Positions 54,542 through 63,297 of a stretch of 64,000 nucleotides of DNA are shown here, one piece after another; the first letter of the stretch is position 1, and each line of letters opens with the position of its first letter. The stretch spans positions 124,001 through 188,000 of the forward strand of contig JAHDCU010000002.1 in assembly GCA_020629715.1 (NCBI GenBank), written 5' to 3'. The position numbers and the translations under genes are program-made. The notes beneath the pieces were generated by a model. That model made no database searches, was not told where the DNA came from, and saw only the letters and a program-made list of their open reading frames with translations. The stretch is from Saprospiraceae bacterium. Its GTDB lineage: Bacteria; Bacteroidota; Bacteroidia; Chitinophagales; Saprospiraceae.

Positions 54542-55618
54542 ATGCGAATCATATTCTTAATCATTATTGGGGCTTCTTTACTTGCCTGCGGCACGAAGCA
54601 GCAAAACATACAATCCACAACGAATACTCCAAAACTTACTAAAGAATTAGCAGAGCACCTATTGAGTCTACCTCTCAAATGCGTTGAACAACAATTACCC
54701 TATAAGTCTGGAATTATCTTGTCTGATTCTAGTGACTTAAATTTACCCATCGTTCATCACCCGATATTTTATGGATGTTTCGATTGGCACTCAGCTGTAC
54801 ATGGCTATTGGTCTATGGTATTTTTACTCAAAGAATATCCAGATCTTGCTCGCAAAGAAGAGGTATTTAAAATTTTAGATAAGCATTTCACCAAAGAAAA
54901 TATCGATCAAGAAATTGCATATTTCAAACTCAATAAATATACCGCATCATTTGAACGGACCTATGGGTGGGCATGGTTATTAAAATTGCAAGAGGAGCTC
55001 AATACATGGGAGATAGATCGAGCAAAGTCATATGCTCAGACTCTTCAACCTCTCAGTAATTTGATTATTCAGAAATATCAAGAATATCTTCCCAAGCTAG
55101 TGTATCCCATTAGAGTGGGTGAACATACCAATACAGCATTTGGTTTGAGCTTTGCATTGGATTATGCCATACAGTCAGGCAATGAAACTTTTGCACAATC
55201 CATCAAAACCCATGCCCTACGTTTTTATGCTGAAGACAAAGGCTGTCCAATCGACTGGGAACCAAGTGGCTATGATTTCTTATCTCCATGTCTTTCTGAG
55301 CTAAGCCTAATGAACAAGGTACTATCCAAGGAAGACTTCAACACATGGAGCACTGATTTTTTACCTTCACTTTTCAATGGTACATTGTCACTAGAACCAG
55401 GAGAAGTAAAAGATAGATCTGATGGTAAACTTGTACATTTGGATGGTCTAAATTTTTCTAGAGCTTGGTGCTTATACGGGATGCAAGATGACTATGCTGA
55501 TCTATTAGCGGATCATCATATCAATCATTCCTTGGATAAGATCAAGGATGGTGACTATGCGGGAGAGCATTGGCTCGCAAGTTTTGCATTATATGCGCTA
55601 AAAACTGGTGCTCAATGA
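54542..55618 (+). CDS. DUF2891 family lipoprotein
   Basis: The protein has 358 residues. The signal MRIIFLIIIGASLLAC has the lipid-accepting Cys16. DUF2891 landmarks are HHPIFYGCFDWHSAVHGYW, FERTYGWAWLLKLQEEL, HTNTAFGLSFALDYA, CPIDWEPSGYDFLSPCLSE and HLDGLNFSRAWCLYG. The many conserved Trp, His, Asp and Glu residues in helical surroundings suggest an alpha/alpha-toroid hydrolase-like fold (inference). The stop overlaps the transporter ATG (ATGA at 55615). It is the first gene of the pxp operon. The exported location separates it from the cytosolic PxpABC. Confidence 0.85.
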   Translation: MRIIFLIIIGASLLACGTKQQNIQSTTNTPKLTKELAEHLLSLPLKCVEQQLPYKSGIILSDSSDLNLPIVHHPIFYGCFDWHSAVHGYWSMVFLLKEYPDLARKEEVFKILDKHFTKENIDQEIAYFKLNKYTASFERTYGWAWLLKLQEELNTWEIDRAKSYAQTLQPLSNLIIQKYQEYLPKLVYPIRVGEHTNTAFGLSFALDYAIQSGNETFAQSIKTHALRFYAEDKGCPIDWEPSGYDFLSPCLSELSLMNKVLSKEDFNTWSTDFLPSLFNGTLSLEPGEVKDRSDGKLVHLDGLNFSRAWCLYGMQDDYADLLADHHINHSLDKIKDGDYAGEHWLASFALYALKTGAQ

Positions 55619-56823
55619 TGTCTAAATTAAAGAAATACTTTGGACCTTCTATGCTGGTTACCGCTGCCTTTATTGGTCCTGGTACCCTGACTGTCTGCAC
55701 GATCGCAGGATATGAATTAGGGTATAGATTGTTATGGGTATTGCTATTCGCAATATTATCGACCGTAGTTCTACAGGAAATGTCTGCAAGGATTGGTTTA
55801 AAAACACAGCAAGGACTGGCAGAAGCATTACAAAGTTACATTCCAAATAAACTCATTAGGATCATTATTTTGGTTCTTTTAGTCACAGCTATATTGATTG
55901 GAAATACCGCCTATGAATCTGGCAACATCGCAGGAGCAAGCCTTGGATTGTCAGGCTTTTTTGGCGAAACATGGTGGTTCGCTATTCTTGTAGGTCTGTT
56001 GGCTATCGGTTTGTTAAGTATACCATCTATCAGATATTTTCAATTCATTATAAGTAGTATAGTACTCTTAATGGTTTGTTGTTTTTTAATTGCTGTTTGT
56101 ATGATAGCACCGAGCTGGACTGATATTTTATCGGGTATGAAGCCCAGTAGTATACCTCGCGATGATATATTTAATGCCGTTGCCTTGGTAGGTACTACAG
56201 TGGTTCCATACAATCTATTTTTGCATGCATCGCTGGTCTCAGAAAAATACGATCAAGACTACTCACTTAGAGATCTAAGGATTGAAAACATTATTGCTGT
56301 TTCACTAGGTGGATTGATTTCTATGATGATACTCATACTAGCCGCCGAGGTCAATCATATAGGAAGCTCTAATGAAGTAAGATCCATTTTAGATCTTGCT
56401 GATCTACTCGGTATGAGTTTTGGAAAGGGATCCATCATAATAATATCTATCGGTCTAATTGCAGCAGGGTTGAGCTCGGCTATTACAGCACCTTTAGCTG
56501 CAGCATATGTGGGCAAAGAGGTTTTTGGATTTTCTCGTAATGCATGGTCATTCCAATGGATTTGGATAGGAATCATAGTTGTGGGTGTTATAGTATCACT
56601 TTCAGGATATAGACCTATTTTGATCATTAAATTGGCTCAAGTAGCCAATGGGGTTATACTTCCATTACTTGCTGCTATACTTATATGGATGACTAATCAG
56701 AAGTCAATAGTTGGAAAAGATACCAATGGCATCTTATATAATATTCTTGGAGTTGTAGTCCTGACTGTTACCATATTTATCTCGTTACGTGCCTTGAATC
56801 ATGTATTTAGCTTTTATAATTGA
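55615..56823 (+). CDS. Nramp-family transporter with altered metal site
   Basis: The protein has 402 residues with about 11 transmembrane helices in the Nramp/LeuT fold. Helix 1 reads AAFIGPGTLTV where canonical Nramp has DPGN, so Asp becomes Gly21 and Asn becomes Thr24. Helix 6 reads TTVVPYNLFLHASL where canonical is MPHN, so Met becomes Val197 and His becomes Tyr199. The metal-ligand residues are therefore missing. B. subtilis ycsG, next to the PxpA homologue ycsF, has an equivalent position. I infer import of 5-oxoproline or a similar solute rather than Mn/Fe. Confidence 0.85.
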   Translation: MMSKLKKYFGPSMLVTAAFIGPGTLTVCTIAGYELGYRLLWVLLFAILSTVVLQEMSARIGLKTQQGLAEALQSYIPNKLIRIIILVLLVTAILIGNTAYESGNIAGASLGLSGFFGETWWFAILVGLLAIGLLSIPSIRYFQFIISSIVLLMVCCFLIAVCMIAPSWTDILSGMKPSSIPRDDIFNAVALVGTTVVPYNLFLHASLVSEKYDQDYSLRDLRIENIIAVSLGGLISMMILILAAEVNHIGSSNEVRSILDLADLLGMSFGKGSIIIISIGLIAAGLSSAITAPLAAAYVGKEVFGFSRNAWSFQWIWIGIIVVGVIVSLSGYRPILIIKLAQVANGVILPLLAAILIWMTNQKSIVGKDTNGILYNILGVVVLTVTIFISLRALNHVFSFYN

Positions 56824-56824
56824 A

Positions 56825-57547
56825 GTGGTCAAACGTATACATATCAACTGTGATCTAGGAGAAGGAAATACCGATCTAGATCGAGAAATGATGCCGCTCA
56901 TCGATGCCTGTAATATCGCATGTGGTGGTCATTTTGGAGATGACGACTCTATATATCAAACGATCGAACTAGCACAACAACATCAAGTAGAAATCGGAGC
57001 TCACCCCTCCTATCCTGACAAGCAAAATTTTGGAAGAGTCAGTTTAGATCTTTTATGGACAGACTTATCAAAAGCATTGAATGAACAATGGAATTTATTT
57101 AAAACCATAGCAAAAAAACAAGATGCACAAGTATCTCATATCAAACCGCATGGAGCCCTATACAATGACTGTCAGCGCGATGACCACCTCAGGGGCTTAG
57201 TCTTTATGCTTTTTGAAAGTTGGGATGAAAAAATCCATATCTATACCAATGCTAGACTCAAAGAGACCAAGCTTCGAATAAAACAAGAATTATTTTTAGA
57301 TCGAAATTATAATGATGATCAATCACTCGTATCACGTACATACGACAATGCGCTTATCAGCGATCCCAATCAAGTAATTGAAAATCTAGATAGACTAATC
57401 TTCCATCAAGAATTATTAAGCATCACTGGAACTGTTTTGAGACCACAATTTCATACCCTCTGTGTCCATAGTGATAGTCCTAATGCCCTGAAAATATTAG
57501 AAAGCATACAGCGATATTGTGAATCCAAAAAAATAGCACGTGTTTAG
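56825..57547 (+). CDS. pxpA: 5-oxoprolinase subunit A (LamB/YcsF family)
   Basis: The protein has 240 residues from a GTG at 56825, one base after the transporter stop. An ATG at 56801 overlapping the transporter is possible, but its extra residues precede the family's usual start. Landmarks are NCDLGEG, NIACGGHFGD, GAHPSYPDKQNFGR, HIKPHGALYND and LCVHSDSP. With PxpB and PxpC it opens 5-oxoproline to L-glutamate using ATP. Confidence 0.92.
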   Translation: MVKRIHINCDLGEGNTDLDREMMPLIDACNIACGGHFGDDDSIYQTIELAQQHQVEIGAHPSYPDKQNFGRVSLDLLWTDLSKALNEQWNLFKTIAKKQDAQVSHIKPHGALYNDCQRDDHLRGLVFMLFESWDEKIHIYTNARLKETKLRIKQELFLDRNYNDDQSLVSRTYDNALISDPNQVIENLDRLIFHQELLSITGTVLRPQFHTLCVHSDSPNALKILESIQRYCESKKIARV

Positions 57548-58181
57548 ATCACTTGGAGATATCATGGATATTCAGCTTTTTGATCAATTCGTTTTCGGAC
57601 GTACAAAAGCAGATTACGAATACATCGATATTCCACTACTTGCACAACACCTTTATAAAGCTCAAATTGATTGCCTAGTAGACTGTCATGCTACCAATGC
57701 AGAAATCTGTATCCAACTTACAACAGCCTCAAGACTCCGTGAATTACTAGAGACACAGATAGATTTAGCTAACATTCATGCAAGCTATCAAGAAAAAATA
57801 ATAATAAACTTCGACCCTGATCATGGAACGGAATGGGATCATATCGAAGCTCATATCAAAATCACCAAACAACAATATATAGACCTACTAGAGAGAATAG
57901 ATTTCAGATTGAGTATGTACGGATTCCTACCTGGCTTTTGTTATTTGACAGGGCTTCCTACATCCATGCAAATACCTAGATCGAGTAAACCTAAGCGTAA
58001 AATCAAGGCTAATACGCTTGCCCTAGGAGGTGAATATATCGGGATATATGGTATCCACAGTCCAGGCGGTTGGGTAGAAATAGGAAAATGTGATCATGCA
58101 CTCTTAGACTTTAGTAACCAACAAATACATAGTCTATCAATAGGTCAAATCATCAATTTTAAATCCATACATCATGGATGA
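57540..58181 (+). CDS. pxpB: 5-oxoprolinase subunit B (KipI-like)
   Basis: The protein has 213 residues. The GTG start at 57540 overlaps pxpA by eight bases and keeps the FRSLGDIMDIQLF segment, which matches the family's GDxA start. The ATG at 57564 would cut it. Later landmarks are YGFLPGFCYLTGLP, ANTLALGGEYIGIYGIHSPGGW. It is the partner of PxpA/PxpC. Confidence 0.87.
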   Translation: MFRSLGDIMDIQLFDQFVFGRTKADYEYIDIPLLAQHLYKAQIDCLVDCHATNAEICIQLTTASRLRELLETQIDLANIHASYQEKIIINFDPDHGTEWDHIEAHIKITKQQYIDLLERIDFRLSMYGFLPGFCYLTGLPTSMQIPRSSKPKRKIKANTLALGGEYIGIYGIHSPGGWVEIGKCDHALLDFSNQQIHSLSIGQIINFKSIHHG

Positions 58182-59049
58182 TAAAATAACAGGATTTGAA
58201 ATTACTAATGCTGGCCTATACAGCACTATCCAAGATTTTGGTAGAAATAGAAGTAGATTTTTTGCAGTGCCCAGTTCTGGAGTCATGGATCATAACGCCG
58301 CTACCTATGCCAACCAAATTCTATCAAATCTCATAGATCATCCTATTATAGAATGTAACTTATCAGGTATGGGATTACAGTTTCATCACGAAATGAATAT
58401 TGCTCTTACAGGAGCAGACTTCGGATGGAAACTAAATGGAAATACCGTAGATCTAAACACGAAAATATTAGTAATTAGAGGTGATAAGCTTACTGGAGGT
58501 TTCAGTCATGATAAAGCACGAGGCTACATTGCATTTGATAAAGAGCTCCAGGAAAATAAAGTTTTAGGGTCATATTCTACTTATCCATTGGCCAAGATAG
58601 GCGCTAATCAAGGTCGAATACTTCGGAAAGGAGATATCATCAAAATATCCGAAAAGAAGTCTTTGAGTCTAGCTCAAGCTGCGCCAGTTATAATAAAAGA
58701 CAAAAATCAAGATATTATTAAAATACAAAAAGGCCCTGAGTGGGATTTATTGAGTCCCTCATCCAAACGAAAATTTTGCATGCTAGAGTATCAAATCTCC
58801 AGTCGAAGTGATCGCATGGCCGCTCACTTAAAAACCACTGAACAACTAGATCTTCAAGAGTATCCTAAGTATTCCAATTGTATTATTCCTGGTATGATTC
58901 AACTTAATTATCATGGTGAACTCATGGTCATCCTTCGTGATGGACAAACCACCGGTGGATATCCCAGAGTAGTATATATCACACATGACAACCTCAATCT
59001 TTTTAATCAAATACTTCCTCACCGAAACTTTAAGTTTGAACTACAATAA
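58174..59049 (+). CDS. pxpC: 5-oxoprolinase subunit C (KipA-like)
   Basis: The protein has 291 residues. NAGLYSTIQDFGRNRSRFFAVPSSGVMDHNAATYANQI opens the domain; IALTGADFGWKLNG, YQISSRSDRMAAHLK and GMIQLNYHGELMVILRDGQTTGGYPRV follow. It overlaps pxpB by eight bases and ends the operon, 38 bases before purK. Confidence 0.92.
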   Translation: MDDKITGFEITNAGLYSTIQDFGRNRSRFFAVPSSGVMDHNAATYANQILSNLIDHPIIECNLSGMGLQFHHEMNIALTGADFGWKLNGNTVDLNTKILVIRGDKLTGGFSHDKARGYIAFDKELQENKVLGSYSTYPLAKIGANQGRILRKGDIIKISEKKSLSLAQAAPVIIKDKNQDIIKIQKGPEWDLLSPSSKRKFCMLEYQISSRSDRMAAHLKTTEQLDLQEYPKYSNCIIPGMIQLNYHGELMVILRDGQTTGGYPRVVYITHDNLNLFNQILPHRNFKFELQ

Positions 59050-62714: not shown

Positions 62715-63209
62715 TTATCCATGTAAAGGCTCGAAATAACCCGTTTTAGTATTTTTCCTTACGTTATTCCAGTCAAAACATCTTCCATTCATACCAATAT
62801 AAACACCCTCATCTAAAGTCTGTACAAATGCTAATGCCGATCCAAGATTAAAAAATCCATCCGAACTACTTCCAAATGCATAAGGAACCATAGCTCCTGT
62901 TATGATAATAGTTTTTCCGTCTATGCTGGCATCGGCCAATACTCTGGCCGTCTCGACCATCGTATCAGTACCATGAGTTATGACTATTTGATTAGTCTTG
63001 GCGTTACGACAACTATGTATAATAATTTCACGATCAGCAGCCGTCATTTCTAGACTGTCTAGCATCATCAATGTTTTTACATCAATATCAAGGGTACTTC
63101 TACCCCTCTCAAACATTTTATTCAAGTGACTATCTTTGAAGTACAACTTACCTGTGATGTAATTATAGTCTTTATCAAAAGTGCCACCTGTTACATATAC
63201 TTGTATCAT
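62715..63209 (-). CDS. Single-domain asparaginase-like protein
   Basis: The protein has 164 residues. VYVTGGTFDKDYN carries the first catalytic Thr region and VITHGTDTMVETA the second; ITGAMVPYAFGSSDG-like and GVYIGMNGRCF follow. It covers only the N-terminal asparaginase domain (full enzymes have about 330 residues). Short forms like this exist in other bacteria, so it may be a functional homolog rather than a fragment. The start may be Met at 63215 or 63227. Confidence 0.78.
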   Translation of the reverse strand: MIQVYVTGGTFDKDYNYITGKLYFKDSHLNKMFERGRSTLDIDVKTLMMLDSLEMTAADREIIIHSCRNAKTNQIVITHGTDTMVETARVLADASIDGKTIIITGAMVPYAFGSSSDGFFNLGSALAFVQTLDEGVYIGMNGRCFDWNNVRKNTKTGYFEPLHG

Positions 63210-63297
63210 GCTCATGTATTGAGTCAAAAGATGAATTATTTTTCAAATATGAATGAAATATCTCATATAAATAAGCATGAATGCCAAATGCTACAAA

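Follow-up and report, generated by a model that had tools for sequence, protein, structure and literature searches.

What does a protein of the DUF2891 family do at the head of a predicted operon for the use of 5-oxoproline (pyroglutamate)? The question is raised by a five-gene cluster in a Saprospiraceae bacterium (Bacteroidota; assembly GCA_020629715.1, 4.13 Mb in 15 contigs), which occupies positions 54542-59049 of a 64,000-nucleotide stretch of contig JAHDCU010000002.1 (positions 124,001 to 188,000, forward strand), hereafter the window. The cluster is best explained as a 5-oxoproline scavenging operon in which DUF2891 is probably an unrecognized part of the pathway. The initial annotation, made by reading the letters, had described five genes on one strand, and this stands: all five frames (DUF2891, a PxpT-like permease of the Nramp family, PxpA, PxpB and PxpC) are open on the + strand at these positions and match their Pfam families above each family's curated cut-off, as follows.

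54542..55618, + strand: DUF2891 protein (PF11199), 358 amino acids (aa), predicted to be exported, with a lipobox-like LLAC at residues 13-16 (Pfam, 417.8 bits; structure model with a predicted local distance difference test score [pLDDT] of 87).
54542..54589, + strand: signal sequence through Cys16, the candidate lipid-bearing residue (from the sequence; lipobox judged by eye).
55615..56823, + strand: PxpT-like permease, Nramp family, 402 aa, with GPGT in transmembrane segment 1 (TM1) and VVPY in TM6 replacing the metal-site motifs (Pfam Nramp, 248.5 bits, scanned from 55570; alignment with an MntH chain and 61 relatives).
55615..55618, + strand: ATGA, in which the DUF2891 stop codon overlaps the permease start (from the sequence).
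56825..57547, + strand: pxpA, predicted 5-oxoprolinase subunit A, with a GTG start (Pfam LamB_YcsF, 229.5 bits; NCBIfam PxpA, 210 bits against a cut-off of 213).
57564..58181, + strand: pxpB, predicted 5-oxoprolinase subunit B, with an alternative GTG start at 57540 (Pfam CT_C_D, 106.3 bits; start chosen from homologues and sequence).
58174..59049, + strand: pxpC, predicted 5-oxoprolinase subunit C (Pfam CT_A_B, 205.6 bits).

The tight packing described earlier also holds for the 4-base overlap between DUF2891 and the permease (55615-55618, at the first permease ATG, with a second ATG at 55618), the one-base gap between the permease stop and the GTG of pxpA at 56825, and the 8-base overlap of pxpB with pxpC. 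The further 8-base overlap reported between pxpA and pxpB depends on the GTG at 57540; a 16-base gap is likelier, because the ATG at 57564 has GGAG just upstream and gives an N terminus that, by eye, resembles those of homologues better.

The strongest evidence for a role of DUF2891 in 5-oxoproline metabolism is that both its transporter and its oxoprolinase partners are exchanged across genomes, while DUF2891 itself stays. A survey for DUF2891 beside pxpABC, as had been proposed from the window, recovered an association in Bacteroidota and Pseudomonadota alike. We considered 100 loci, 20 from a sample of 296 Bacteroidota genomes (neighborhoods were read in 20 of the 24 other genomes with the domain, plus one later, with G277, G041 and G047 left out) and 80 that best match the window DUF2891. 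The order DUF2891-PxpT-PxpA-PxpB-PxpC recurs in 36/100 (5/20 sampled and 31/80 best matches, the latter share being biased, since these loci were chosen for their match to the window protein); nine further loci are partially linked, and one carries DUF2891 last. In 41 of 44 linked loci, the DUF2891 frame end and the start of the permease match lie no more than 30 bases apart. Across the 296 genomes, 25 have DUF2891, 57 have PxpA above its cut-off and 10 have both, and in 6 of these 10 (window included) the two form one cluster, where uniform placement would predict about 0.002 per genome; as the genomes are related, the p-value for this clustering is a guide only. PxpA is also present in 10 of 18 further genomes reached through the best-match loci. 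PxpABC without an adjoining DUF2891 is common: none of 36 neighborhoods read from 51 other pxpA-bearing sampled genomes contains the domain, and DUF2891 is therefore an accessory that the operon may have or lack. In the DUF2891 tree the linkage to PxpT requires 18 changes, with at least nine of them forced by the starred branches, so the tie was gained or lost many times. A third architecture is seen in a Bacteroidota locus (L313, 5911-16715), in which an M14 peptidase, a DUF2891 lipoprotein, an OPLAH-type oxoprolinase and PxpT lie in a row on one strand.

The partners differ in Pseudomonadota, where DUF2891 was found in 36 of 299 genomes. Here, 17 of 35 neighborhoods show the order DUF969-DUF979-DUF2891; an OPLAH-type 5-oxoprolinase is in view in six of these 17, in one case on the opposite strand, and PxpBCA in one, and beyond the 17 there is one locus with OPLAH and no transporter and one with PxpT-PxpABC. 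PxpA occurs in 18/35 genomes with DUF2891 versus 4/35 without. When fused Hydantoinase A/B-sized frames are also admitted as 5-oxoprolinase candidates (Hydantoinase_B being counted only in open frames longer than 1,100 aa, as the family also covers hydantoinases and caprolactamases), a candidate is present in 34/35 genomes with DUF2891 versus 8/21 without, the 21 being a subset of the 35 controls; with controls limited to genomes of at least 2.8 Mb, the comparison is 34/35 versus 8/13 (p 0.004). Used as a control, the genome of Caulobacter vibrioides gave matches to DUF2891 and Hydantoinase_B and, probably, DUF979. DUF969/979 was rejected as a partner of DUF2891 in Bacteroidota, with DUF979 found in 0/296 genomes. 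DUF2891 is also matched by 55 plasmid records, of which 35 are from Klebsiella. On one Klebsiella plasmid (NZ_CP097647.1; L260), DUF969 and DUF979 lie upstream of DUF2891, each matching as two pieces that are either duplicates or fragments. The order on a Burkholderia replicon (L261) is DUF969-DUF979-DUF2891, and three further records (L262-L264) have DUF2891 alone, including a Roseomonas plasmid (NZ_CP061095.1; L264, 6973-8993) in which the start of DUF2891 shares four bases with a peptidase gene of family S58 (P1).

These arrangements have precedents in the literature. In Corynebacterium glutamicum (pxpTABC) and Bacillus subtilis (pxpA-ycsG-pxpBC), too, an Nramp-family permease shares an operon with the three ATP-dependent 5-oxoprolinase subunits; a text search of the paper on the former finds no DUF protein (PMC13274462), whereas the window operon is led by an exported DUF2891. 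A closer parallel is Campylobacter jejuni cj0552-cj0554, published in 2026, which encodes DUF969, DUF979 and DUF2891: a mutant in this operon failed to grow on 5-oxoproline as the nitrogen source, and the operon is downregulated by glutamine, the authors crediting the transporter subunits (PMC12795558). DUF2891 lies there in an operon tied to growth on 5-oxoproline, with a transporter of a different family from that in the window. In addition, a study of halotolerance places Hydantoinase B/oxoprolinase, DUF969, DUF979 and DUF2891 under the near-consecutive cluster numbers 113, 115, 116 and 117 (PMC10040529). An iron-dependent gene table for Porphyromonas gingivalis contains a DUF2891 protein, PG0768, with a 1.5-fold change and an adjacent value of 0.099 (PMC10434189).

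On which side of the membrane does the protein act? DUF2891 is the only Pfam match of the window protein at an E value of 0.001 and spans the whole profile (positions 2-325 of 325); the nearest relative found, at 78% identity, is from another Saprospiraceae assembly (L049). Its signal sequence, MRIIFLIIIGASLLAC, is lipobox-like by eye. The location outside the membrane that had been proposed for it is supported for the PxpT-linked clade, in which a Cys47/Cys79 pair is found in 45/45 proteins and a signal peptide in 44/45, the sole exception (L080) being truncated at a contig end. It does not extend to the family as a whole: all 17 DUF969/979-linked versions lack both the signal peptide and the cysteine pair and look cytosolic. 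Export was called throughout from N-terminal hydrophobicity, and three matches were excluded, two for being short and L223 as too weak for the E 1e-20 cut. Of 67 unlinked versions, 62 have signal and pair and four have neither; in the remaining one (L211) the apparent signal lies 5' of a plausible start. The exported and cytosolic forms are a pattern of two clades rather than a repeated correlation: compartment and transporter covary clearly in the table, but the switch occurs once in the tree, and we gave this relationship no statistical weight. Frames of 637-677 aa in Pseudomonadota were considered as DUF2891 fusions and rejected; in the two scanned, the extra 318-337 residues have no Pfam match and DUF979 lies just upstream, so they are read as open frames running on upstream. 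The gene also seems to decay at times, as two Bacteroidota genomes have it broken up (L025/L026 and L022/L027; internal stops in G047, two matches in G057).

The structure model of the window protein (pLDDT 87; predicted template-modeling score 0.86) matches C. jejuni Cj0554 (8ieu, 8iev), the closest solved structure, with a Z score of 42 and 1.8 Å over 322 residues at 39% identity. It points to a six-hairpin helical barrel, (alpha/alpha)6, like that of Cj0554. In the solved Cj0554 chain, 340 aa long, the match already begins at residue 17, so that a signal peptide would hardly fit ahead of it, although the construct may be trimmed; the window protein, by contrast, carries both a signal sequence and the pair Cys47/Cys79. 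Helices 82-98, 140-155, 198-211, 249-260, 299-312 and 342-357 of the model alternate with others and are taken as the inner helices from a reading of helix order. Nine residues, D81, H83, H87, E138, R139, H195, E240, D294 and H299, are invariant in 133/133 sequences, and W82, R191 and H343 are conserved in 132/133. In the model, these residues fall at the starts of the inner helices or no more than nine residues ahead of them, with H87 one turn in; enzymes of the (alpha/alpha)6 fold keep their active sites at the inner-helix starts. The exported and cytosolic forms share the polar core without variation, which argues that both carry out a single chemistry, each on its own side of the membrane. 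The fold itself leaves the function undecided. At E < 0.001, a Foldseek search returned nothing besides Campylobacter DUF2891 chains, and a profile search of PDB sequences gave no convincing match beyond 8ieu/8iev (next E value, 0.12). In a second structure comparison many helical barrels scored nearly equally: after Cj0554 the top match was cellobiose 2-epimerase (Z 15.8), with glucuronyl hydrolases and complement C3d nearly tied (Z 15.7 to 14). N-acylglucosamine and cellobiose 2-epimerases have the six-hairpin barrel in common with DUF2891 (Z 13.9 to 15.8) at 7 to 9% identity. Homology to sugar epimerases was rejected, as hhalign against N-acylglucosamine 2-epimerases gave a probability of 1.1%.

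From these observations we infer that DUF2891 is an enzyme with 5-oxoproline as its product, and we put at about an even chance that it acts one step ahead of the 5-oxoprolinase. In the scheme we favor for the window, the lipoprotein DUF2891, outside the inner membrane, would convert a 5-oxoproline compound to L-5-oxoproline, PxpT would bring this in, and PxpABC would open the ring with ATP to give glutamate. The likeliest substrate would be an N-terminal pyroglutamyl peptide, although release of 5-oxoproline from such peptides is, as a specific activity, a somewhat doubtful proposal. We regard as tentative, if a little more plausible, the wider proposal that DUF2891 is a new pyroglutamyl hydrolase unrelated in fold to those known (or the first 5-oxoproline racemase), with exported and cytosolic forms that pair with different transporters and 5-oxoprolinases and that, in Bacteroidota, would recycle the pyroglutamate caps left by the Q-rule. 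If release is the right reading, DUF2891 would do the same job as pyroglutamyl peptidase I (family C15), to which it has no sequence match.

The main rival, a variant within the broader reading, is that DUF2891 is a 5-oxoproline racemase that converts D-5-oxoproline, such as might come from the D-glutamate of peptidoglycan, to the L form accepted by PxpT/PxpABC, on either side of the membrane. Such an activity would be useful in both compartments of the two forms; the best fold match after Cj0554 is an epimerase, epimerases of the cellobiose 2-epimerase fold use paired histidines, and the invariant histidines and arginine would suit acid-base chemistry on a carboxylate. However, the near-equal scores of glucuronyl hydrolases and complement C3d mean that the fold does not choose, and the profile comparison with N-acylglucosamine 2-epimerases was empty. 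A racemase would also have no evident use in the 13/25 Bacteroidota genomes with DUF2891 that lack both PxpA and Hydantoinase_B. We consider it unlikely. Release is favored because DUF2891 occurs in those 13 genomes, where no 5-oxoprolinase is known. It is also favored because Bacteroidota cap most of their exported proteins with pyroglutamate (Q-rule; PMC5837995, PMC10653852), yet C15 is found in 1/296 genomes, with no match in the genome studied here. In the window, 18 frames have signal-peptide-like starts, and in 10 of these a script placed Gln directly after the likely cleavage site; nine of the 10 fit the Bacteroidetes Q-rule and one is read as a lipoprotein. Release is favored, too, because unlinked DUF2891 genes rather often neighbor peptidases: among close neighbors on the same strand, peptidases make up 8/38 versus 1/30 for control genes (two-sided p 0.067; the test was chosen after peptidases had been spotted by eye, and 30 of 40 drawn control genes were scanned). 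The eight, read from Pfam, are S41, M54, M24, M16, M14, M20, Lon and PmbA/TldD, two of them flanking one locus; TsaD, a transglutaminase core, a Mg-chelatase with a weak Lon_C match and, in the control set, a sub-cut-off S33 were left uncounted. This peptidase neighborhood is suggestive only. Together, these arguments amount to a lean toward release over racemisation, and none of them is proof.

Several observations weigh against the scheme. Comparison identified no catalytic site in DUF2891, we know of no peptidase of this helical-barrel fold, and the cytosolic DUF969/979-linked clade has no need of release outside the cell. No 5-oxoprolinase is in view in 10/17 DUF969/979-linked loci, and the co-occurrence with PxpA in Bacteroidota is modest (10/25 genomes with DUF2891 versus 47/271 without, p 0.014). 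The Campylobacter mutant lacked the whole operon, and its authors called the growth test preliminary (PMC12795558). The permease, for its part, matches the NCBIfam model "Nramp family divalent metal transporter" (Nramp_1; 91.8 bits against a cut-off of 50), and overexpression of B. subtilis YcsG raised cellular manganese, on which basis Mn2+ import was reported and the protein renamed MntG (PMC10448178). Finally, in 54 of the 100 loci no other gene of the operon is in view around DUF2891 (some contigs being short), which, with the 13/25 Bacteroidota genomes without a known 5-oxoprolinase, would suit a general periplasmic role that is unrelated to 5-oxoproline and shares operons with its genes in some lineages. 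Against such a role stand the repeated linkage to PxpT-PxpABC, DUF969/979 and OPLAH and the near-universal co-occurrence with a 5-oxoprolinase candidate in Pseudomonadota, and we judge it quite improbable.

Less probable again is a role in binding or docking without catalysis, by which DUF2891 would pass 5-oxoproline to the transporter. Its position as the first gene adjoining the permease, with tight spacing in nearly all linked loci, and its export where PxpT-linked would agree with this; however, binding for uptake makes little sense for the DUF969/979-linked clade, which looks cytosolic in 17/17 cases, and the invariant set of acids, bases and arginine exceeds the usual needs of binding. 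Moreover, Nramp-type secondary carriers normally require, to our knowledge, no binding protein.

The permease bears on what the operon imports. DPGN in TM1 and MPH in TM6 are the metal-site residues of canonical Nramp/MntH transporters. The initial annotation was right to call the protein an altered Nramp: it has GPGT for DPGN in TM1 and VVPY for VMPH in TM6 relative to its best PDB match, an MntH chain. The TM1 aspartate is kept in 0/62 aligned permeases (the window protein and 61 relatives, with two short sequences left out), of which 55 have GPGT and 7 GPGF. Two stricter NCBIfam metal-transporter models fall below their cut-offs (MntH, 159.5 against 430; TIGR01197, 109.2 against 272.5). It is encoded beside pxpABC, as expected of a PxpT/YcsG-type permease, and is the sole Nramp match in this genome. 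In C. glutamicum, deletion of pxpT stops growth on 5-oxoproline and complementation restores it, although its authors leave metal transport possible (PMC13274462); the earlier 5-oxoproline evidence for YcsG is described as having polar effects incompletely ruled out (PMC10448178). The proposed import of 5-oxoproline is thus supported by the C. glutamicum work and by the absence, from the window protein as from 61/61 relatives, of the metal-site residues of TM1, and we side with 5-oxoproline over Mn2+ as the likely cargo. That the permease is instead a manganese importer, the cluster coupling Mn2+ supply to nitrogen metabolism without 5-oxoproline import, is very improbable despite the YcsG result, the Nramp_1 match and its being the only Nramp of the genome, given the lost aspartate (present in the aligned MntH chain), the two stricter models far below their cut-offs and the complemented C. 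glutamicum phenotype. In seven Bacteroidota loci (L225, L226, L227, L231, L235, L236 and L255), pxpBCA adjoins a distantly related Nramp protein of a second type, with 19-22% identity to the window permease; seven pxp-only permease sequences have GPGF in TM1.

All three subunit families of the 5-oxoprolinase (LamB_YcsF, CT_C_D and CT_A_B) are present in the one cluster. The more specific NCBIfam cut-offs were missed by PxpA narrowly (210 against 213) and by PxpB (76 against 145.6) and the PxpC equivalog (158 against 500), and these proteins appear to be divergent copies whose predicted 5-oxoprolinase activity is assigned through Pfam family and context only. The ATP-driven ring opening of 5-oxoproline to glutamate has been shown by others in relatives, according to papers that cite that work. 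As for the surroundings, the dihydroorotase-like frame upstream is directed away from the cluster, which leaves DUF2891 as its leading gene, and purK/purE-like frames lie downstream (all named by eye); the dihydroorotase-like and purK-like flanks differ from the known pxp operon, which has a PxpR-type regulator. An asparaginase-like short frame (170 aa, 62715-63227, - strand, named by eye) lies near the window end.

PxpTABC is already known as a 5-oxoproline uptake and cleavage system, and the Campylobacter DUF2891 link is in print (PMC12795558). Despite its solved structure, DUF2891 is assigned no function in the open-licence papers found; the pattern of exported and cytosolic forms is absent from those papers, and none of the open-licence papers searched names a 5-oxoproline racemase. 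The cluster bears on the dispute over whether YcsG-type permeases move 5-oxoproline or manganese. More broadly, the recurrent pairing of DUF2891 with two transporters and two 5-oxoprolinases narrows the search for its function to a handful of assays. If it does release pyroglutamate, DUF2891 would fill a gap: Bacteroidota cap most of their exported proteins with pyroglutamate (PMC5837995) but almost never carry C15 (1/296 genomes).

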